Of a stretch of DNA of 64,000 nucleotides, positions 7,936 through 31,416 are shown piece after piece. Origin of the DNA: Rhodobacteraceae bacterium UBA6796. Its GTDB lineage: Bacteria; Pseudomonadota; Alphaproteobacteria; Rhodobacterales; Rhodobacteraceae. Positions within the stretch are counted from its first letter, which is position 1, and every line of letters starts with the position of its first letter. Where the stretch lies: the NCBI GenBank assembly GCA_002452815.1, contig DKFM01000011.1, forward strand, positions 1 to 64,000. The letters are read 5' to 3'. A program made the position numbers and the translations under genes. The notes under the pieces were generated by a model. It had not been told where the DNA came from. It did no database searches and was given only the letters and a program-made list of their open reading frames with translations.

Positions 7936-9141
7936 ATGACAAAGCAGGATCGCCCCATGCCCCGTGATGGCCAGACCGCCCCGAATTGCTACGACGCCGA
8001 ACCGATCCCCGAGGCGGCCCGCGCAGAAATCGACCGTCTGCTAAGCTCGGGGGATCTGTTCCGCTACACCTCGGAAAATGCGCCGGTCTCGCAGCTGGAA
8101 GCGGAATTCGCCGACTTCATCGGGGCGCGTTATGCGGTGGCGGTGGCATCCTGTTCGGCGGCGCTGTTTTTGTCGCTCAAGGCGCTGGATCTGCCGCGCG
8201 GCGCGCGCGTGCTGGTGCCCGCCTTCACCTTTGCCGCCGTGCCCTCGGCAATCGTGCATGCCGATTGCGAGCCGGTGCTGGTCGAGGTGGCCGATAACTT
8301 CCGCATAGACATGGCCGATTTCGAAGCGAAATTCGATGACAGCATCGCCGCGGTGATGATCAGCCACATGCGCGGCCACACCTCGGACATGGATGCGATC
8401 ATGGCGCTGGCCGATGCGCGCGGCGTGCCGGTGATCGAGGATGCGGCCCATAGCCTGGGCACGTTGTGGAACGGCCGCCAGATCGGCACGATCGGCAAGA
8501 TCGGCTGCTTCAGCTTCCAAAGCTACAAGCTGATCAACGCCGGCGAAGGCGGCATCCTGATTACCGACGACCCGGAACTGGCGGCGCGCGCAGTGATCAT
8601 GTCGGGCGCCTATGAACACAACTGGAAAAAGCACCCCGGCCTGCAGAACAGCTTCCATCACTGGCAAAACAAGCTGCCGCTCTACAACACCCGGATGCAG
8701 AACCTGTCCGCCGCCGTGATCCGCCCGCAGATCGCCGAGGTGCCGCGCCGGGTGGCCGATGGTCGCGCGAACCACGATTACGTGGCCGAAATCCTCAATA
8801 CCTCGCCCTGGCTCGACGTGCCGCCGCCGCTTGCGCCCGAAACCCGGGCCCCTGACAGCCTGCAGTTCAATCTGGTGGGCGAATGGAGCGACGCAGAAGC
8901 GCTGCGCCTGCAGGACGAAGCCAAGGCACGGGGCGTTTCAGTGCAGGTTTTCGGCCTGTCGCAGGACAATGCGCGCGCCTATTGGAACTGGCAGTTCCTC
9001 GGCGAGATCCCGGAATTGCCGAAGACCCGTGCGATGCTGATGCGCGCCTGCGACACCCGCCTGCCCGCCCGGCTGAAGAAACCCGATCTGGATTTCATCG
9101 CACACGCGATCGTCGAGGCGGCAACGGCGGTCAAAGGCTGA
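7936..9141 (+). CDS. DegT/DnrJ/EryC1/StrS-type PLP aminotransferase
   Basis: 401 residues, fold type I. The Schiff-base lysine is Lys198 in the family motif SFQSYKLINAGEGG, and VIEDAAHSLGTLWNG supplies the aspartate that contacts the pyridine nitrogen. Most members aminate nucleotide-linked or small keto sugars, but no sugar genes are nearby; here it follows the amine-oxidation cluster after 58 bases, which suggests either use of an amine-derived aldehyde or an unrelated role. The start at MTKQDRPMP is tentative; an internal ATG seven codons later is possible. A large palindromic repeat follows. Confidence 0.88.
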   Translation: MTKQDRPMPRDGQTAPNCYDAEPIPEAARAEIDRLLSSGDLFRYTSENAPVSQLEAEFADFIGARYAVAVASCSAALFLSLKALDLPRGARVLVPAFTFAAVPSAIVHADCEPVLVEVADNFRIDMADFEAKFDDSIAAVMISHMRGHTSDMDAIMALADARGVPVIEDAAHSLGTLWNGRQIGTIGKIGCFSFQSYKLINAGEGGILITDDPELAARAVIMSGAYEHNWKKHPGLQNSFHHWQNKLPLYNTRMQNLSAAVIRPQIAEVPRRVADGRANHDYVAEILNTSPWLDVPPPLAPETRAPDSLQFNLVGEWSDAEALRLQDEAKARGVSVQVFGLSQDNARAYWNWQFLGEIPELPKTRAMLMRACDTRLPARLKKPDLDFIAHAIVEAATAVKG

Positions 9142-9160
9142 CACCGCGCGCGGGCTGAGT

Positions 9161-9290
9161 GGACCGGAGCCTCCGGCGGGGATATTTAAGCCAGAAAGAA
9201 GGCAGCAGCGGTTTGCCTTCTTTCTGGCCGGAAATATCCCGGGGGTGAATGCGGCGCAGCCGCAGAGGGGGCGGGCCCCCTGCCCGGCCC
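9161..9290. repeat. Palindromic intergenic repeat, copy 1
   Basis: An inverted pair of the window's dispersed module lies here: GGGATATTT-AA-GCCAGAAAGAAGGCA at 9179-9204 faces its complement at 9214-9240 around a 9-base loop, giving a stem of about 24 bp with a small internal mismatch. It is flanked by GGAGCCTCCGGCG on the left and by GGGGGTGAATGCGGCGCAGCCGC plus a G/C-block hairpin on the right. It lies between convergent genes and could act as a two-way terminator. Confidence 0.85.
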
Positions 9291-9305
9291 CACGTAGCGC
9301 GCGCC

Positions 9306-9722
9306 TTACATGACTCGGGGGTAGTCGATTTTCGGGCAGCGGTTCATCACCACGCGCACCCCTTGCGCCCGGGCCGCCGCGGCGGCGCCATCGTGCATCA
9401 CGCCCAGTTGCATCCAGACCGTGCGCAGCGCGGGCAGATGCGCCAGCGCCTGCTCGACGATTTCCGGCACCGCCTCGGAGCGGCGAAAGATATCGACCAT
9501 ATCGACCTTCAGATCGGCGGGAATCGCCACCAGATCGGGATAGACCGTCTCGCCCAGCAGGCTCTGCCCCGCCAGCCCCGGGTTGACCGGAATGATGCGA
9601 TAGCCCTTGGCCTGCATGTATTCGGCCACATGATAGGACGGGCGGTCGTGATTGGCGGAAATGCCCACGACGGCAATCACCTTGGTATCGCTGAGAATTT
9701 CACGGATTTCGGGATCAGTCAT
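9306..9722 (-). CDS. CoA-binding domain protein (YccU family)
   Basis: 138 residues forming a single Rossmann-like CoA_binding domain: VIAVVGISANHDRPSYHV at the start of the nucleotide-binding fold, then GYRIIPVNPG, VDMVDIFRRSEAVPEIV and VMNRCPKIDYPR. Members resemble the CoA-binding part of succinyl-CoA synthetase alpha but lack the catalytic histidine domain; function is unknown. Two consecutive ATGs occur; the second (9722) is chosen because AGGAGG then lies 5 bases upstream. Confidence 0.88.
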   Translation of the reverse strand: MTDPEIREILSDTKVIAVVGISANHDRPSYHVAEYMQAKGYRIIPVNPGLAGQSLLGETVYPDLVAIPADLKVDMVDIFRRSEAVPEIVEQALAHLPALRTVWMQLGVMHDGAAAAARAQGVRVVMNRCPKIDYPRVM

Positions 9723-9919
9723 CATCGCCTCCTGTTTCGCGCCAGCTTGCAGAAAAATGCGCCCGAGCCAAGAGGCCGGGCGCACAGTGGCGGAACGAGG
9801 GACAGTGAACTGAAGCGCGGCGGTTCCAAAGCCGTGCTTCCTGAGTCAGACATAGGAACGTAAAAGCCCGGTTAAAGGGGGCCGGTTCGAAATCCACAGC
9901 CTCTCGCGCGTTTGTGACT

Positions 9920-10702
9920 TCAGCGATTTGTGGCCGCGTACAGGGCCACAGCCGCCGCGTTCGAAACGTTGAGCGAGCCGAACGCCCCGCCGAAGGGAAT
10001 TTTCACCAGCGCGTCACAGGTCTCGCGCGTCTTTTCGCGCAGGCCCGGGCCCTCGGCCCCCAGCACCAGCCCGACAGGCCGCGTGCCCGCCTGCGCCAGA
10101 CCTTCGGCCAGGGTCATCTCGGCCTCGCCCGCCAGACCCAGCAGGACATAGCCCATATCGCGCAGCTTCTGCATCGCGTCGGCCAGGTTGACCACCCGAA
10201 GATAGGGTTGGCGTTCCAGCGCACCGCTGGCGGTTTTCGCCAATGCGCCGGTCTCGGGTGCGGAATGGCGCGCGGGCGCCACGACGGCACGCGCGCCGAA
10301 AACTTCGGCCGAGCGCAGGATCGCGCCGACGTTATGCGGATCCGTCACCCGGTCGAGCAGCACCACCAGCGGCGCGCCTGCGCCGCTCAGGCACACCTCG
10401 TCGAGCGTGCCCCAGTGCAGCGGCTTGACCTCCAGCGCGGCGCCCTGATGGACCGAATCCGGGGCCAGCGTGACATGGGCGTCGAATTTGCGCGGATCGA
10501 CGATCTCGGGGGGCAGACCGCCAGCGGCAATCGCCTCGGCCAGCTTGTCGGCCGCGTTTTTCGTCAGCACCAGCCGCAGTTTTTCGCGCGCCGGGTTCAT
10601 CAGCGCATCGCGCACCGCATGCAGCCCGAACAGCCACACGGTTTCCGCCGCCGCCGCGCGGCGCGCGCGTTCCTTGTCAATCACCCAGGTCGGTTTCTTC
10701 AT
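9920..10702 (-). CDS. rlmB: TrmH/RlmB-family 2'-O-ribose RNA methyltransferase
   Basis: 260 residues, SPOUT (SpoU) class. An N-terminal substrate-binding domain (ETVWLFGLHAVRDALMNP) is followed by the knotted SAM-binding domain with DRVTDPHNVGAILRSA, LGAEGPGL and the C-terminal PFGGAFGSLNVSNAAAVALY motif. The length and motifs match RlmB, which methylates G2251 of 23S rRNA, but related enzymes share them, so the exact target base is inference. It is divergent from the tRNA-like gene at 10826. Confidence 0.9.
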   Translation of the reverse strand: MKKPTWVIDKERARRAAAAETVWLFGLHAVRDALMNPAREKLRLVLTKNAADKLAEAIAAGGLPPEIVDPRKFDAHVTLAPDSVHQGAALEVKPLHWGTLDEVCLSGAGAPLVVLLDRVTDPHNVGAILRSAEVFGARAVVAPARHSAPETGALAKTASGALERQPYLRVVNLADAMQKLRDMGYVLLGLAGEAEMTLAEGLAQAGTRPVGLVLGAEGPGLREKTRETCDALVKIPFGGAFGSLNVSNAAAVALYAATNR

Positions 10703-25405: not shown

Positions 25406-26131
25406 TTACAGCGCGATCCTGGTGAACCCGTCGCGCAACGCTTCGGACCAGGCATGCGACATGCGCGCAAACTGTGCGTCTTCCTTCTCGATCCGGCGCC
25501 GCATCGTCACCTTGCAGTCGTCCTTCTCGATCACGGCCAGATCCAGCGGCATCCCCACCGACAGGTTCGAACGCAGGGTCGAATCCATCGACAGCAGCAC
25601 CGCCTTTTGCGCGTCTTCCAGCGAAGTATCCGGCCGGACCACCCGGTCCAGGATCGGCTTGCCGTATTTATGCTCGCCGATCTGCAGGAAAGGCGTGTCC
25701 TCGGTCGCCTCGATGAAATTGCCTTCGGGATAGATCAGGAACATCCGCATCGCGCCGCCCTTGCGCTGCCCCGCGACGATCATCGAGGCCGAGGTCGAGA
25801 CCTTCGATGCCTCCATCCGCGCGTCGATGTCCTGCCGCACCGAAGCCAGCGTGTCACCGACGATTTCCGCCACCTTCAACATCGTCGGCGCCAGCATGAT
25901 CGAATCCGACGGCGTGGCGTCGGGGTCGTCCACCGCCTCGCGCAGGCGTGCCATGGTGGTTTGAGTCACCGAAAGCGACCCGGCGGTCAGAATTGTCACC
26001 ACCCGCTCGCCCGGTTCTTCGAAGACGAACATCTTGCGATAGATCGCAATATTGTCGACCCCGGCGTTGGTGCGGGTATCGCTCAACAAAACCATGCCTG
26101 CATCCAGCAGCAGGCCCACACAATAGGTCAT
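25406..26131 (-). CDS. Anbu: ancestral proteasome-like beta subunit
   Basis: 241 residues. The start MTYCVGLLLDAGMVLLSDTR is diagnostic of Anbu. Removal of Met exposes Thr1, the Ntn-hydrolase nucleophile; counting from it, Asp17 (LLSD) and Lys32 (IYRK) complete the proteasome-type active site. There is no propeptide, unlike HslV-independent 20S beta subunits. Anbu forms open helical rings in known structures, and its substrates are unknown. It is the last gene of a four-gene operon with a transglutaminase-like protease, an alpha-E protein and a circularly permuted ATP-grasp. Confidence 0.95.
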   Translation of the reverse strand: MTYCVGLLLDAGMVLLSDTRTNAGVDNIAIYRKMFVFEEPGERVVTILTAGSLSVTQTTMARLREAVDDPDATPSDSIMLAPTMLKVAEIVGDTLASVRQDIDARMEASKVSTSASMIVAGQRKGGAMRMFLIYPEGNFIEATEDTPFLQIGEHKYGKPILDRVVRPDTSLEDAQKAVLLSMDSTLRSNLSVGMPLDLAVIEKDDCKVTMRRRIEKEDAQFARMSHAWSEALRDGFTRIAL

Positions 26132-26164
26132 CCGATCCCCCGGGATTCGCGCGTTACGGCGAGA

Positions 26165-26977
26165 TTATTGCTGCACCGACTCGAGGGCAACTGTGACATC
26201 GAGGCTCTCTTCGCCCGTGCCAAGTGCAATGCCCTTGATCGGCGCCGCGTCGCGGGCATCGAAGCCCGATCCCAGCCGGATATAGCGCCCGTCCGGGCAG
26301 CACTGATTGGCCGCGTCAAACCCGATCCAGCCGATCCCCTGCACCCAGATTTCGGCCCAGGCATGGGCGGCCTCGTGCGGCTCGCCATCATCGCGCGCGA
26401 ACAGATAGCCCGAAACATAGCGCGCCGGCAGTTCCACCGCGCGGGCGCAGGCGATCAGCGCATGGGCATGATCCTGGCAGACCCCTTCGCCCAGGGCCAG
26501 CGCCTCGGCGGCGGTGGTATGGGCATGGGTCACGCCGGGCTTGTAGGCGATCGCCTCGGCCACGGCGCGCGACAAGCGATGCGCGCGGTCCAACCCGTCT
26601 TCGGCCCCCAAAACCGCCTCTTGCGCCAGCGTCTCCAGGCCATCGTCGATCCAGGTTGCGGTGGTTTCGCGCAGATAGGCGAAGGGCGAGACAGTTTCGC
26701 GATGCCCACGCAGGACACCCGCCATGTCAGTGGTTTCGACCTGCCCGGTCACGACGACCGTCACCTCGGACACCGGACCGCGCAGCGACCAGCCTTCGAC
26801 ACGGTCTCCGGCACCGTCCCGAAAACTGCCGCCTTTGACGCCGCCGTCGACCGCGACATCCCAGTTGATGATGCGCTGCCCGTCGAACCGCGAGGGGAAC
26901 AGCCGCAGCGACTGCACTGCGGACCGCATCGGCGCGTCATATTGGTAGGTGGTGACGTGATTGACCGTCAGGATCAT
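26165..26977 (-). CDS. Transglutaminase-like cysteine protease of the Anbu operon
   Basis: 270 residues. An N-terminal bacterial transglutaminase beta domain (LTVNHVTTYQYDAPMRSAVQ) precedes the papain-like core with Cys in GEGVCQDHAHA, His in AAHAWAEIWV and Asp in GFDAANQC, the catalytic triad. In bacteria such enzymes are usually peptidases or amidases rather than crosslinkers. Its start overlaps the alpha-E gene by 4 bases and Anbu begins 33 bases after its stop. In this context it is proposed to process isopeptide or peptide products of the ATP-grasp enzyme; that is inference. Confidence 0.93.
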   Translation of the reverse strand: MILTVNHVTTYQYDAPMRSAVQSLRLFPSRFDGQRIINWDVAVDGGVKGGSFRDGAGDRVEGWSLRGPVSEVTVVVTGQVETTDMAGVLRGHRETVSPFAYLRETTATWIDDGLETLAQEAVLGAEDGLDRAHRLSRAVAEAIAYKPGVTHAHTTAAEALALGEGVCQDHAHALIACARAVELPARYVSGYLFARDDGEPHEAAHAWAEIWVQGIGWIGFDAANQCCPDGRYIRLGSGFDARDAAPIKGIALGTGEESLDVTVALESVQQ

Positions 26978-27927
26978 CGCGCTTCTCCGCTCAGATAGGC
27001 GTGCTGCACCATTTCGGTCAATTCGCTGATCTCGCGGATGAACCGGGTCAGGAATTCATGCAGCCCCTCTTCGAAAATGTCCTCGATCCGGGTTTCCGAC
27101 AGCTCGCCCAACACCGCGCGCGCCCGCATCTGTGCCGGACCCGATTTGTGATAATCGCGCGCCAGCTGGTCCAGATGTTCCATCGCGGTTTCCGTGGCGG
27201 TAATCAGCGACCGCGGGCTTTGCCGGTTCAGGATCAGGAAATGTGCGATTTTTGCAGCCGTGATTTCGCCGCCATAGGCCCAATGGAAGGCGCGATGCGC
27301 CGAAAGCGCGCGCAGCAGCGTCTGCCACTGGTAGTTATCAAGCCCGGACCCCACAAAATCCAGCCGCGGCAGCAGGACATAATATTTCACATCCATCAGC
27401 CGCGCGGTGTTGTCGGCGCGCTCCAGCGCGAAGCCAAGGTTGAGGAAGTGATAGCCGTCGTTGCGCAGAAGCGTCGCATCCATCGCCCCGCGCACCATCG
27501 CCGCCTGCCGGTTGACCCATTCGGTCAGCTCGGTCAGCTCCAGTTCTGACCGCGCCTGCCGTTCCAGCTGACGCATTTCCTGAAACGCCATGTTCAGCGC
27601 GTCCCAGACCTGGCTGGTCATCGCCGTGCGCACGATGCGCGCGTTTTCTCGGGCCCGCTCGATGCAGCTGACAACTGAACTGGGGTTGTCACGGTCAAAG
27701 AACAGATAGCTTTCGATGTTGCGCTGCACCGGGTCGCCGTATTTCGCCGCAAAGCCTTCGGCCGTGCCCGAGGCCTGCAGCAGGCTTTCCCATTCGCTGC
27801 GATATCCGTGCCCGGCCGAGGGCATCAACGCGATCCGCGCGCCCACCTCCAGCAGCCGCGCCATGGTTTCCGCACGCTCGATGTAACGCGCAATCCAGAA
27901 AAGGTTTTCCGCCGTCCGGCTTAGCAT
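26974..27927 (-). CDS. Alpha-E domain protein of the Anbu operon
   Basis: 317 residues, almost entirely helical, beginning MLSRTAENLFWIARYIERAE, the standard alpha-E opening; other family pieces are RLLEVGARIALMP, YLFFDRDNPSSV and RADNTARLMDVKYYVLLP. The domain has no assigned biochemical activity but almost always accompanies circularly permuted ATP-grasp and transglutaminase-like proteins. It lies 6 bases after the ATP-grasp stop and overlaps the transglutaminase start by 4 bases, so the three are tightly coupled. Confidence 0.93.
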   Translation of the reverse strand: MLSRTAENLFWIARYIERAETMARLLEVGARIALMPSAGHGYRSEWESLLQASGTAEGFAAKYGDPVQRNIESYLFFDRDNPSSVVSCIERARENARIVRTAMTSQVWDALNMAFQEMRQLERQARSELELTELTEWVNRQAAMVRGAMDATLLRNDGYHFLNLGFALERADNTARLMDVKYYVLLPRLDFVGSGLDNYQWQTLLRALSAHRAFHWAYGGEITAAKIAHFLILNRQSPRSLITATETAMEHLDQLARDYHKSGPAQMRARAVLGELSETRIEDIFEEGLHEFLTRFIREISELTEMVQHAYLSGEAR

Positions 27928-27933
27928 GTCAGT

Positions 27934-29346
27934 TCACTCCGCCAGAACCCAGGTATCCTTGACCCCGCCGCCCTGCGACGAGTTCACCACAAGCGAGCCT
28001 TCGGTCAGCGCCACGCGGGTCAGACCGCCCGGCACCAGCTCGATCTTTTCGCCAACCAGACAATAGGGCCGCAGATCGACGTGACGCGGCGCGATGCCTT
28101 CCTCGACGAAGGTCGGCGTGGTCGACAGCGCCAGCGTCGGCTGGGCGATGTAATTGCCGGGGTCTTCCTCGATCTTCAGACGGAAATGCTCGATCTGGTC
28201 CTTGGTCGCCTTCGGCCCCACCAGCATGCCATACCCGCCCGATCCGTGGACCTCTTTCACCACCAGTTCGGGCAGATGCGAGAGCACATATTTCTTGTCC
28301 TCTTCCTTACCGCACTGCCAGGTCGGCACGTTCTGCAAAAGCGGCTCTTCGCCCAGATAGAAGCGGATCATGTCGGGCACGAAGGTATAGATCGCCTTGT
28401 CATCGGCCACCCCTGCCCCCGGCGCCGAGGTGATCGTGACCCCGCCGGAGCGGTAGACATCCATCAGACCCGGCACCCCCAGCATCGAGTCAGGGCGGAA
28501 GCACAGCGGGTCGAGGAAACTGTCGTCGATGCGCCGATAGATCACGTCGAGCTTCTTGGGCCCTTCGGTCGTGCGCATCCAGACGAAACCGCCCTCGACG
28601 AACAGATCCGCGCCCTCGACCAGTTCGACCCCCATCAGATCGGCCAGGAAGCTGTGTTCGTAATAGGCCGAGTTGAAATGCCCCGGCGTCAGAATCGCGA
28701 TCGTCGGGTCGCGGTCGCATTTCGCGGGCGCGACCGAGGCCAGCGTGCGGCGCAGCGCATCGGCATAGCCGTCGACCGGCTCGATCCGGTTTTCACGAAA
28801 CAGCGCGGGGAACATCCGCATCATGATCTCGCGGTTTTCCAGCATGTAGCTGACGCCCGAGGGCGTGCGGCAGTTGTCTTCCAGAACGAAAAATTCGTCC
28901 GGTCCGGTGCGCACCAGGTCAATGCCGACGATATGGCTATAGATCCCGCGCGGCGGGGTGAAGCCGGTCACCGCGCGCTCAAAGGCTTCGTTCTGATAGA
29001 CCAGACGTGCCGGGATCTTGCCCGCGCGCACGATCTCGCCGCGGCCATATACATCCAGCAGAAAGGCGTTCAGGGCGCGGGCGCGTTGCTTGATGCCACG
29101 CTCCAGCTTGCGCCATTCGAACTGTGTGAAGACGCGCGGGAACATGTCGAACGGGATCAGGCGATCCGGGTCGCCCCCTTCGCCGTAGACCGCAAAGGTG
29201 ATCCCGATGCGGCGGAACAACGCCTCGGCCTCGGCCTGTTTCATCTGCCGCAATTCGGCGGGCATTGCGCGGGTCCAGTTCTCGAGCCGGGCATAGGGCT
29301 CGCGAACTTTGCCGCCATCATACATTTCATTGAAGAAGTTGGTCAT
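27934..29346 (-). CDS. Circularly permuted ATP-grasp ligase of the Anbu operon
   Basis: 470 residues. Family segments are MYDGGKVREPYARLENW, MFPRVFTQFEW, the FFVLEDNCRTPSGVSYMLEN metal/ATP site, VKEVHGSGGYGMLVGP (ATP-grasp glycine loop) and YIAQPTLALSTTPTF. The family is predicted to form amide bonds between carboxylates and amines, as in glutathionylspermidine-synthetase-related enzymes, and has been proposed to make or attach a peptide tag. It is the first gene of the operon; 252 bases upstream separate it from the divergent pepF, leaving room for the promoter. Confidence 0.93.
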   Translation of the reverse strand: MTNFFNEMYDGGKVREPYARLENWTRAMPAELRQMKQAEAEALFRRIGITFAVYGEGGDPDRLIPFDMFPRVFTQFEWRKLERGIKQRARALNAFLLDVYGRGEIVRAGKIPARLVYQNEAFERAVTGFTPPRGIYSHIVGIDLVRTGPDEFFVLEDNCRTPSGVSYMLENREIMMRMFPALFRENRIEPVDGYADALRRTLASVAPAKCDRDPTIAILTPGHFNSAYYEHSFLADLMGVELVEGADLFVEGGFVWMRTTEGPKKLDVIYRRIDDSFLDPLCFRPDSMLGVPGLMDVYRSGGVTITSAPGAGVADDKAIYTFVPDMIRFYLGEEPLLQNVPTWQCGKEEDKKYVLSHLPELVVKEVHGSGGYGMLVGPKATKDQIEHFRLKIEEDPGNYIAQPTLALSTTPTFVEEGIAPRHVDLRPYCLVGEKIELVPGGLTRVALTEGSLVVNSSQGGGVKDTWVLAE

Positions 29347-29598
29347 TCGCCTTGATTCCTCCGGCCTTGGGTCGAGCTTAGGCAGCGCCCGAAAGGAGGA
29401 AAAGTGGCGCCGAAGTGTTAACGCCGTTCAGTCGCAAGAAATTGCCTTGAAAATAGGACAATGCATATATTTTAATCATCCAGCGTCCATTCTGGTGGGT
29501 GGACGCCCCGGTTCCCCGGTGCCCGATGGGGGTGCCGGGCCTTGCACCGCCCCCCTGCCACCCCCTATCTGTTGGGCAACACGCAACACGAGGACGCC

Positions 29599-31416
29599 AT
29601 GACCCTGACCCTGCCGACACCCGTTTTTGATGCCAATGCCAGCGCGGGGGCCTTCGGCGATCTGCCCGACTGGGATCTGAGCGATCTGTATACCGCCCCC
29701 GATGCCCCCGAATTTGCCCGCGACATGGAGTGGCTCGAACGCGCCTGTGCGGAGTTTGCGGCCGATTACGAAGGCAAGCTGGCCGGGCTCGACGCGGCGG
29801 CCATGGCCGAATGCATCCATCGTTATGAGGCGATCGAAACCACCGCCGGGCGGATCATGTCCTATGCGGGCCTGCGCTATTACCAGAACACCACCGATGC
29901 CGGCTGCGCCAAATTCCTGGCCGACGCGCAGGACAAGATCACCAATTTCACCACGCCGCTGGTGTTCTTCAGCCTGGAATTCAACCGCATCGAGGACGCC
30001 ACCTATGCGACCGTCTTCGCCGATCCGGCCGTGGCGCGCTACAAGCCCGTCTTCGACCGGATGCGCGCGATGAAGCCGCACCAACTGTCCGACGAGATGG
30101 AGAAATTCCTGCACGACCAGTCGGTTGTCGGCGCCGCCGCATGGAACCGGCTGTTTGATGAAACCACGGCCGGGCTGGAATTCACCGTGCAGGGCGAGGT
30201 GCTGAGCCTGGAAGCGACCACCACGCTCTTGTCGGATCACGACCGCGCCAAGCGCGAGGCGGCGGCGCGCGAATTGGCGCGGATCTTCGGGGAAAACATC
30301 AAGCTGTTCGCCCGGGTCCACAACACGCTGGCCAAGGAAAAGGAAATCGAGGACCGCTGGCGCAAGATGCCCACGCCGCAATACGGCCGCCATCTGGCCA
30401 ACGATGTCGAACCCGAGGTGGTCGAGGCGCTGCGCAATGCGGTGGTGGCGGCCTACCCGCGGCTTTCGCACCGTTATTATGCGCTGAAGGCTAAATGGCT
30501 GGGGCTCGACAAGCTGCAGGTGTGGGACCGCAACGCCCCCCTGCCTGCCGAATCCCCGCGTCCGATCCAATGGGACGAGGCCCGCGAAACGGTGATGTCG
30601 GCCTATGCCGCCTTCGCGCCGGAAATGGCCGAGATCGCCGCGCCCTTCTTCGACAAGGGCTGGATCGACGCGGGCGTGAAGCCGGGCAAGGCGCCGGGGG
30701 CCTTTGCCCATCCGACCGTGACCACGGTGCATCCCTATATCTTGCTGAACTACCTGGGCAAGCCGCGCGACGTGATGACCCTTGCGCATGAACTGGGCCA
30801 TGGCGTGCATCAGGTGCTGGCCGCGGATCAGGGCGAGCTGCTGGCGTCAACGCCGCTGACGCTGGCCGAAACCGCCTCGGTCTTTGGCGAGATGCTGACC
30901 TTCCGCAAGCTGCTGGAGGGCGCCAAGACCCCGGCCGAGCGCAAGACCCTGCTGGCGGGCAAGGTCGAGGACATGATCAACACCGTTGTGCGCCAGATCG
31001 CGTTCTACGATTTCGAATGCAAGCTGCACGCCGCCCGCGCCCAGGGCGAGCTGACGCCGGACGACATCAACGCGCTGTGGATGTCGGTGCAGGCCGAAAG
31101 CCTGGGGCCGGTGTTCGAGTTCATGCCGGGATACGAAACCTTCTGGTCCTACATCCCGCACTTCGTGCACTCGCCCTTCTACGTCTATGCCTATGCCTTC
31201 GGCGACGGTCTGGTGAACGCGCTTTATGCCGCCTATGCCGACGGCCTGCCGGGGTTCGAAGAGAAGTATTTCGCGATGCTCCGCGCCGGTGGCTCGATGC
31301 ATCACAAGGATCTGCTGGCCCCCTTCGGGCTGGATGCCACCGACCCCGCGTTCTGGGACAAGGGGCTGAGCATGATCGCCGGGCTGATCGACGAGCTGGA
31401 GGCGCTGGAAGACTAA
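29599..31416 (+). CDS. pepF: Oligoendopeptidase F (M3 metallopeptidase)
   Basis: 605 residues. The zinc motif HELGH is at residues 397-401 and the third ligand Glu lies in ETASVFGEML, as in M3 enzymes; the PepF/M3 N-terminal helical lobe begins DWDLSDLYTAPDAPEFARD. It degrades peptides of roughly 7-17 residues in the cytoplasm. The ATG at 29599 follows ACGAGGA by 4 bases; upstream sequence in frame is low-complexity. It is divergent from the Anbu operon, a second peptide-processing function side by side, though no functional link is shown. Confidence 0.93.
   Translation: MTLTLPTPVFDANASAGAFGDLPDWDLSDLYTAPDAPEFARDMEWLERACAEFAADYEGKLAGLDAAAMAECIHRYEAIETTAGRIMSYAGLRYYQNTTDAGCAKFLADAQDKITNFTTPLVFFSLEFNRIEDATYATVFADPAVARYKPVFDRMRAMKPHQLSDEMEKFLHDQSVVGAAAWNRLFDETTAGLEFTVQGEVLSLEATTTLLSDHDRAKREAAARELARIFGENIKLFARVHNTLAKEKEIEDRWRKMPTPQYGRHLANDVEPEVVEALRNAVVAAYPRLSHRYYALKAKWLGLDKLQVWDRNAPLPAESPRPIQWDEARETVMSAYAAFAPEMAEIAAPFFDKGWIDAGVKPGKAPGAFAHPTVTTVHPYILLNYLGKPRDVMTLAHELGHGVHQVLAADQGELLASTPLTLAETASVFGEMLTFRKLLEGAKTPAERKTLLAGKVEDMINTVVRQIAFYDFECKLHAARAQGELTPDDINALWMSVQAESLGPVFEFMPGYETFWSYIPHFVHSPFYVYAYAFGDGLVNALYAAYADGLPGFEEKYFAMLRAGGSMHHKDLLAPFGLDATDPAFWDKGLSMIAGLIDELEALED

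Follow-up and report, generated by a model that had tools for sequence, protein, structure and literature searches.

Anbu is a widespread relative of the proteasome that has been studied structurally in several species. An Anbu operon lies in a 64,000-nucleotide stretch of a Rhodobacteraceae genome (UBA6796, contig DKFM01000011.1, positions 1 to 64,000; hereafter the window). Its four genes encode a circularly permuted ATP-grasp ligase, an Alpha-E protein, a transglutaminase-like cysteine protein (TG), and Anbu, an arrangement already described (PMC5666114 and PMC6376114, where Valas and Bourne 2008 and Iyer et al. 2009 are cited for it). The main observation of this study is a Gln-rich C-terminal tail, normally on TG, which is seemingly under selection in the operon and offers a definite site for probing what the system does. 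We read the tail as the tethered substrate, or else a handle, of a complex centered on the ligase unit, because any of three proteins (TG, Alpha-E, or the ligase) can carry it, and because it outlasts both the absence of Anbu and the loss of the TG catalytic triad.

A Gln-Rich Tail in the Anbu Operon

The Gln-rich C-termini surfaced during a search for docking tails. The sample consists of 114 operons, the window included, with a standalone, that is, unfused, pair of ATP-grasp and Alpha-E genes; TG is adjacent in 93 of them, 83 with Anbu in the locus (a looser adjacency rule gives 94 and 84). The last residue of TG is Gln in 65 cases under either rule. A wider rule, satisfied by 79 of the 93 proteins, accepts a terminal Gln, the patterns QQ, Q.Q.Q, or Q..QQ within the last 15 residues, a terminal Q.Q, or two Gln among the last six residues. 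Without the close Rhodobacteraceae, 42 of 69 TGs end in Gln and 55 satisfy the wider rule. At least one of TG, Alpha-E, and ATP-grasp bears a tail in 90/93 operons with an adjacent TG (the exceptions are L052, L074, and L086), as compared to 6/21 operons without it (Fisher p 2e-11, with kinship ignored and three potential tail bearers compared to two).

In controls, terminal Gln is rare. It was found in 6/439 neighboring open reading frames (ORFs), in two of 16 lone TGs, and in none of 19 TGs of the second system described below (three genomes are counted twice in the latter set); among the other operon proteins, it terminates no ATP-grasp (0/114), one Anbu (1/94), and ten Alpha-E proteins (10/114). 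The wider rule admits 18/439 neighboring ORFs, 3/16 lone TGs, and 3/19 second-system TGs, the last two sets being counted by eye and two of the latter three proteins representing one genome counted twice. By the neighbor control, a tail is expected by chance on any of the three proteins in about 12% of cases. The neighboring ORFs were called mechanically from families present in at least five loci and may include spurious frames; the TG paralogs and the remaining proteins of the operon give the cleaner comparison.

Comparison of the tails suggests that the Gln content itself is selected, since the remaining letters are unlike and both Gln codons are used: the last eight TG residues are 28% identical overall and 7% identical at non-Gln letters (55 sequences, 400 random pairs), and the tail codons are CAG in 215 cases and CAA in 125. 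Of 55 tails, 38 allowed placement of the strand pattern, and these extend 2 to 30 residues beyond the last strand. Among the matches listed, all 120 close TG homologs end in Gln, all of them close kin and the window's own protein included. A lone transglutaminase-like paralog on another contig of the same genome (C6, L034, 3945-4766) has no Gln tail.

Eleven previously unused plasmid-collection records, out of 26 with an Anbu match, formed a hold-out set, from which L218, L221, and L222 were left uncounted because the standalone pair is missing from the stretch. TG lies downstream of ATP-grasp in eight records; it satisfies the wider rule in seven and ends in Gln in six. The failure is Acinetobacter baumannii L217, where Alpha-E was also undetected. 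The existence of a Gln tail on the operon TG is well supported. The available parts of the Anbu literature, searched by tail and glutamine terms, contain no mention of it, the founding paper of Iyer et al. 2009 lying outside the scope of this search; the tail may be a new property of the family.

The tail is not confined to one protein. Where TG lacks it, Alpha-E or ATP-grasp bears one in 11/14 operons, as opposed to 9/79 where TG has it (Fisher p 7e-7, kinship ignored). In genomes without Anbu, a tail was found in 10/14 operons, and in 8/14 it is carried by Alpha-E. The Alpha-E tails in these Anbu-less genomes suggest that the tail has its partner in the ligase unit and not in Anbu.

The Ligase and Alpha-E as the Core of the System

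The co-occurrence of the components was analyzed in 120 genomes of Pseudomonadota, including that of the window. Anbu is present in 43, Alpha-E in 69, the ATP-grasp family CP_ATPgrasp_2 above the cut-off in 69, and Bact_transglu_N in 67. ATP-grasp and Alpha-E occupy the identical 69 genomes (one more genome has an ATP-grasp below the cut-off), and this, together with their fusion in a paralogous protein, supports the view that they act as one unit. Alpha-E accompanies Anbu in 42 of the 43 Anbu genomes. The sole other case, contig C88 of genome G094 (L059, 6035-6775), has Anbu without matches to Alpha-E, ATP-grasp, or Bact_transglu_N.

Anbu is missing from 27 of the 69 genomes with the pair; a repeated search of these 27 and two non-Alpha-E genomes with a 25-row alignment, run without a positive control, found it in 0/29. 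Where present, Anbu is less than 10 kb from the standalone pair in 28/43 genomes, that close to both the pair and the fused protein in 8/43, and at a greater distance or on a separate contig in 7/43, some of which are drafts. Mapped onto a tree built from 46 standalone ATP-grasps, possession of Anbu by the genome requires at least eight gains or losses. The Anbu-less ligase genomes, the distant Anbu genes, and the repeated gain and loss indicate that, as far as gene content tells, the ligase/Alpha-E pair is the core of the system and Anbu is its frequent but dispensable partner.

These data bear on the sequence-only reading of the locus, which had proposed that the ligase and Alpha-E make an isopeptide or peptide tag, that TG edits it, and that Anbu degrades the tagged material. 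The compactness of the four-gene unit and the coupling of the ligase to Alpha-E agree with this scheme, whereas Anbu as a necessary sink is not supported, given the absences, the distances, and the gains and losses listed above. Nor does editing by TG hold as a general step, as the triad reads as broken in 5/93 adjacent TGs (L074, L125, L131, L143, and L160; L125 is divergent, and its triad alignment is less sure).

In its strict form, with other proteins being tagged and then degraded by Anbu and the Gln tail being incidental, the scheme is improbable. A protease and a ligase do share one operon, Anbu rarely occurs without the ligase, and epoxomicin reacts with Thr1 of Pa-Anbu (PMC5666114). 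However, Anbu is absent from 27 ligase genomes, the scheme leaves the Gln tail unexplained, and no conserved peptide tag is encoded upstream of 64 operons. No AAA+ unfoldase was found among the genes flanking the operon in the window or among the ten representatives of recurrent neighbors that were scanned. Similarly, no free small Pup-like protein is conserved upstream of the same 64 operons, and there is no room for one inside the operon; the rest of the genome lay outside this search. The upstream small-ORF groups with more than two loci (five, four, and three) overlap one another in different frames and are probably the 3' end of a neighboring gene.

Possible Role of the Tail

The explanation we favor, tentatively, is that the ligase complex works on the system's own tethered Gln tail, with TG as the editing enzyme and Anbu as the one that removes it. 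ATP-grasp and Alpha-E would form an amide-ligase unit acting not, or not only, on loose metabolites; its target would be the Gln-rich tail, normally the TG C-terminus. The tail may be deamidated or trimmed by the cysteine enzyme; an amine or a target would be joined to it by the ligase, and Anbu could cut the tail or the conjugate. The role of the tail as a substrate of the ligase or the cysteine enzyme, and every later step, is what we infer. The ATP-grasp of the Yersinia Anbu operon does release phosphate from ATP (PMC6376114).

Several observations weigh against this explanation. Free Gln or Glu did not stimulate the phosphate release (PMC6376114), and a role in peptide synthesis was judged less likely by Fuchs et al. 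(PMC5666114). A tail is kept in four of the five operons with a broken TG triad, on ATP-grasp in L125, L131, and L143 and on TG in L160 (L074 has none), and so is not simply a substrate of that same TG. The Alpha-E tails mostly end in a residue other than Gln, and the second-system TG of the window's own genome satisfies the wider rule through an internal QSQQ. That rule was set after the tails had been seen, so that only the hold-out is independent, and the hold-out is small and made up of related species; one of its seven positives, the Paracoccus record L224, shares its tail end with L110, a Paracoccus already in the first set, and is not fully independent. Phylogeny-controlled independent pairs keep the directions of the associations, but none is significant, the pairs being too few. 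Finally, of the 83 operons whose locus includes Anbu, 65 have a TG with an exact terminal Gln, compared to 0/10 of those whose locus lacks it, which would also fit docking to Anbu.

Such docking is the main rival to the substrate reading, although in our estimate an unlikely one. The TG C-terminus would enter the inter-subunit groove of Anbu and activate it in the manner of HslU, which would make TG the missing activator. Apart from the distribution of the exact terminal Gln, this agrees with the inactivity of Anbu alone on the standard substrates tried and with the fit of the HslU tail to the YbAnbu groove on superposition (both PMC6376114, PMC5666114). In the phylogenetic pairs, Anbu in the locus and a tail on TG agree in 3.0 of six on average and never go in opposite directions, but the test is not significant. 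Tails that vary from 2 to 30 residues are unlike a fixed docking motif, and Gln tails, mostly on Alpha-E, are also present in operons of Anbu-less genomes. An HslU-like tail was also sought at the ATP-grasp C-terminus, where none of the 114 proteins ends in Gln.

In the published pull-down, which found no interactions within the operon, TG carried a C-terminal FLAG (PMC6376114); this would mask the tail under the substrate and docking readings alike. A doubtful further possibility is that the operon supplies a tethered Pup-like tag of its own: the Gln-ended tail, on TG or else on Alpha-E or the ligase, could be both the true substrate of the ligase and the missing partner or substrate of Anbu. 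If so, the earlier failure to see operon interactions would be explained by the blocked tail.

Comparison with Pup, HslVU, and Connectase

The tethered-tail explanation resembles the Pup-proteasome system in logic only: the shared elements are a Gln at a C-terminus, a ligase that depends on ATP, an enzyme of amidase or protease type, and a relative of the proteasome. Pup is made with a C-terminal Gln, which is deamidated before ligation (PMC7947786). In contrast, the ligase of the Anbu operon is an ATP-grasp rather than PafA-like, and the tail is part of one of the system's own enzymes. No PafA- or Dop-type ligase or deamidase was found among the operon proteins, which belong to the ATP-grasp, Alpha-E, transglutaminase, and proteasome families.

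Anbu is also a relative of HslV, and in HslVU the protease is activated by the C-terminal tail of its partner (PMC6376114), but no gene of an AAA+ partner was seen beside the Anbu operon, and Anbu forms an open ring (PMC5666114). Connectase, a proteasome-like protein that is not a protease (PMC8665760), demonstrates that this fold need not be proteolytic; it differs in being monomeric and archaeal, and Anbu is not known to have such an activity.

Possible Link to Nitrogen Metabolism

In another explanation, which we consider quite improbable, the system serves nitrogen scavenging or storage: the ligase would make or remodel small amides or peptides, TG and Anbu would free the nitrogen, and the tail would be regulatory. 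In the Burkholderia cenocepacia ntrC mutant, a cluster of the ligase, Alpha-E, and two TGs, with no Anbu listed, is down 6- to 9-fold (PMC5491218), Anbu rises in P. putida when nitrogen is limiting (cited in PMC5666114), and in marine metagenomes, these domains of unknown function are found in clusters with urea genes (PMC3597751). On an Acidithiobacillus plasmid, Anbu lies near glnL/ntrC. Among the 120 genomes, Alpha-E is present in 33/42 with urease and in 36/78 others (strong matches only, with seven weak urease rows taken as absent and genome size and kinship uncorrected), but a similar tendency is seen for the control enzyme isocitrate lyase, for which 19/48 rows counted as strong (odds 2.3 vs 4.3 for urease). 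Anbu expression, on the other hand, is unchanged under various other conditions (PMC5666114), and neither an NtrC nor a sigma-54 motif is enriched upstream of 109 ATP-grasp genes as compared to controls. Nitrogen control thus is plausible from other species and is not visible in the upstream sequences analyzed here.

The candidate NtrC sites were rejected as follows. In the first scan, 19 of the 109 upstream regions had matches of at least 9/11 to the consensus, against about 7.5 in block shuffles. Compared to permuted half-sites, the true motif is not special, ranking 14th, 2nd, and 18th out of 20 at spacings of 4, 5, and 6, respectively, and at spacing 5 there are 65 matches inside genes vs 40 upstream. 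The best sigma-54 site in the 109 regions has at most 7/12 matches.

A Second System Whose Ligase Appears to Be Dead

The window's own genome contains, on contig C7 (L033, 653-7447) and hence beyond the reach of the sequence-only reading, which covered the window alone, a second system consisting of a TG-DUF2126 amidoligase of 1149 amino acids (aa), a fused ATP-grasp-Alpha-E protein (809 aa), and a TG (295 aa). The fused protein is present in 36/120 genomes, and all 36 also have the standalone pair. Residues E156, N158, D315, D316, K317, D424, and N455 are retained in 0/36 fused proteins, as against every standalone ATP-grasp aligned there (112/112 or 113/113), and K364 survives in 3/36. The lost residues include the metal ligands of ATP-grasp enzymes (E-x-N), and K364 corresponds to their ATP lysine. 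Within Pseudomonadota, which this survey covers, the fused ATP-grasp class looks like a dead ligase, the loss of E156 and N158 being the firmest point, as the fused rows align only loosely near K364 and at the last motif.

In the Alpha-E domain of the fusion, E17, R18, R24, R100, E169, R170, and R239 are conserved in 35 or 36 of the 36 proteins, whereas N81 is retained in none, R93 in four, N112 in four, R176 in ten, and W201 in one (the reference being 114 standalone rows). We infer that the eponymous ER residues of Alpha-E are probably structural and that N81, R93, N112, R176, and W201 may serve the active ligase. A dead fused ligase was not met in the literature, where no search was aimed at this point. 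The apparent loss of activity separates an active core of the family from an accessory system and shows which ATP-grasp to assay.

The Operon of the Window and Its Neighbors

The window locus is an ordinary, intact member of the known four-gene Anbu operon (Table 1): it has the same four families in the same order, with intact active-site residues and a partly Anbu-1-like S1 pocket, and no feature marks it off from other members. As the sequence-only reading had it, the genes are packed with gaps of 6, -4, and 33 bases, the TG start codon overlapping the Alpha-E stop by four bases; the ORF calls and Pfam families confirm this. The association of the four families exceeds chance: the order of all four genes is the same in 61 of the 80 named loci of Anbu that were compared, the best 80 out of 596 confirmed matches. 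Of the remaining 19, several are cut by contig ends or lack TG or the ligase/Alpha-E pair. Median gaps across loci are about 4, 4, and 37 bases, with BLAST-anchored starts.

Table 1. Features of the Anbu operon locus in the window
Feature	Positions	Strand	Description	Best matches
Circularly permuted ATP-grasp ligase	27934..29346	-	470 aa, operon gene 1	Pfam CP_ATPgrasp_2/1 2.4e-164/4.2e-145 (PF14403 2.4e-164); PDB 3n6x 3.8e-188
Alpha-E protein	26974..27927	-	317 aa	PF04168 4.5e-91
Transglutaminase-like cysteine protein (TG)	26165..26977	-	270 aa	Bact_transglu_N + Transglut_core 2.7e-17/4.1e-24; PDB 3isr 4.1e-13
C-terminal Gln end of TG (..ESVQQ)	26168..26182	-	codons CAG CAA, then TAA	
Anbu, proteasome-like Ntn hydrolase	25406..26131	-	241 aa	Pfam Proteasome 2.9e-6; solved Anbu chains
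Intergenic region, operon to divergent PepF	29347..29598	.		
PepF (M3 peptidase)	29599-31416	+	divergent from operon	

The identity of Anbu is settled by its match to solved Anbu chains (5loy 7.9e-80, 5nyj 1.8e-75, and also 5nyf, 5nyw, and 5lox), and the mature protein, as predicted to follow Met removal, has Thr1, Asp17, and Lys32, all three of which had been read correctly from the sequence. Its S1 pocket, T20, Y30, T48, L52, and T55, is identical to the Anbu-1 pattern T20-F30-T48-L52-S55 (PMC5666114) in three of five positions, with two conservative changes, and does not match the Anbu-2 pattern. TG has Cys167, His205, and Asp221, its structural match being weaker than that of ATP-grasp; its Gln end had gone unremarked in the sequence-only reading. 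The ATP-grasp keeps the invariants of the standalone class, E156, N158, D315, D316, K317, K364, G370, G371, G373, D424, R426, and N455. A sequence search for solved structures found no relative of Alpha-E at E values up to 1, and PADLOC models of anti-phage defense gave zero matches to the four operon proteins at E 0.001.

The named close relatives of Alpha-E belong to Paenirhodobacter, Rhodobacter, and kin. In the ATP-grasp tree, the enzymes of two genomes of the same family (G083 and G099) group with those of other families, leaving out that of the window. This grouping suggests that there are possibly two versions of the operon in Rhodobacteraceae, perhaps by transfer.

The operon is flanked by an SCP2 protein, an alpha/beta hydrolase, and PepF, as assigned by Pfam. 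PepF does lie back to back with the operon, as had been noticed from the sequence, and adjoins it in 13 loci, the alpha/beta hydrolase doing so in 16; all are close Rhodobacteraceae, and by this distribution the PepF adjacency is local synteny. The region between the operon and PepF contains no conserved small ORF and no supported NtrC or sigma-54 site. Outside the close Rhodobacteraceae, no extra conserved partner gene was found beside the operon: the commonest neighbor families occur in at most ten loci, and those scanned are generic or reflect local synteny.

Anbu genes were also observed on plasmid records and on records labeled as phage. Two records labeled as phage (H26 and H27, Acinetobacter phage MD-2021a; 232 and 306 kb) contain a host-like Anbu and are perhaps mislabeled bacterial contigs. 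The Acidithiobacillus caldus megaplasmid (L218, 1-10684) carries two Anbu-like ORFs near glnL/ntrC and an IS256 transposase, together with a long transglutaminase family gene (8067-10595), and no standalone ligase pair was detected within this stretch. The Klebsiella pneumoniae IncFII plasmid, typed as conjugative (L216, 1810-5747), carries a complete four-gene Anbu operon in which TG ends in QQAQQQ.

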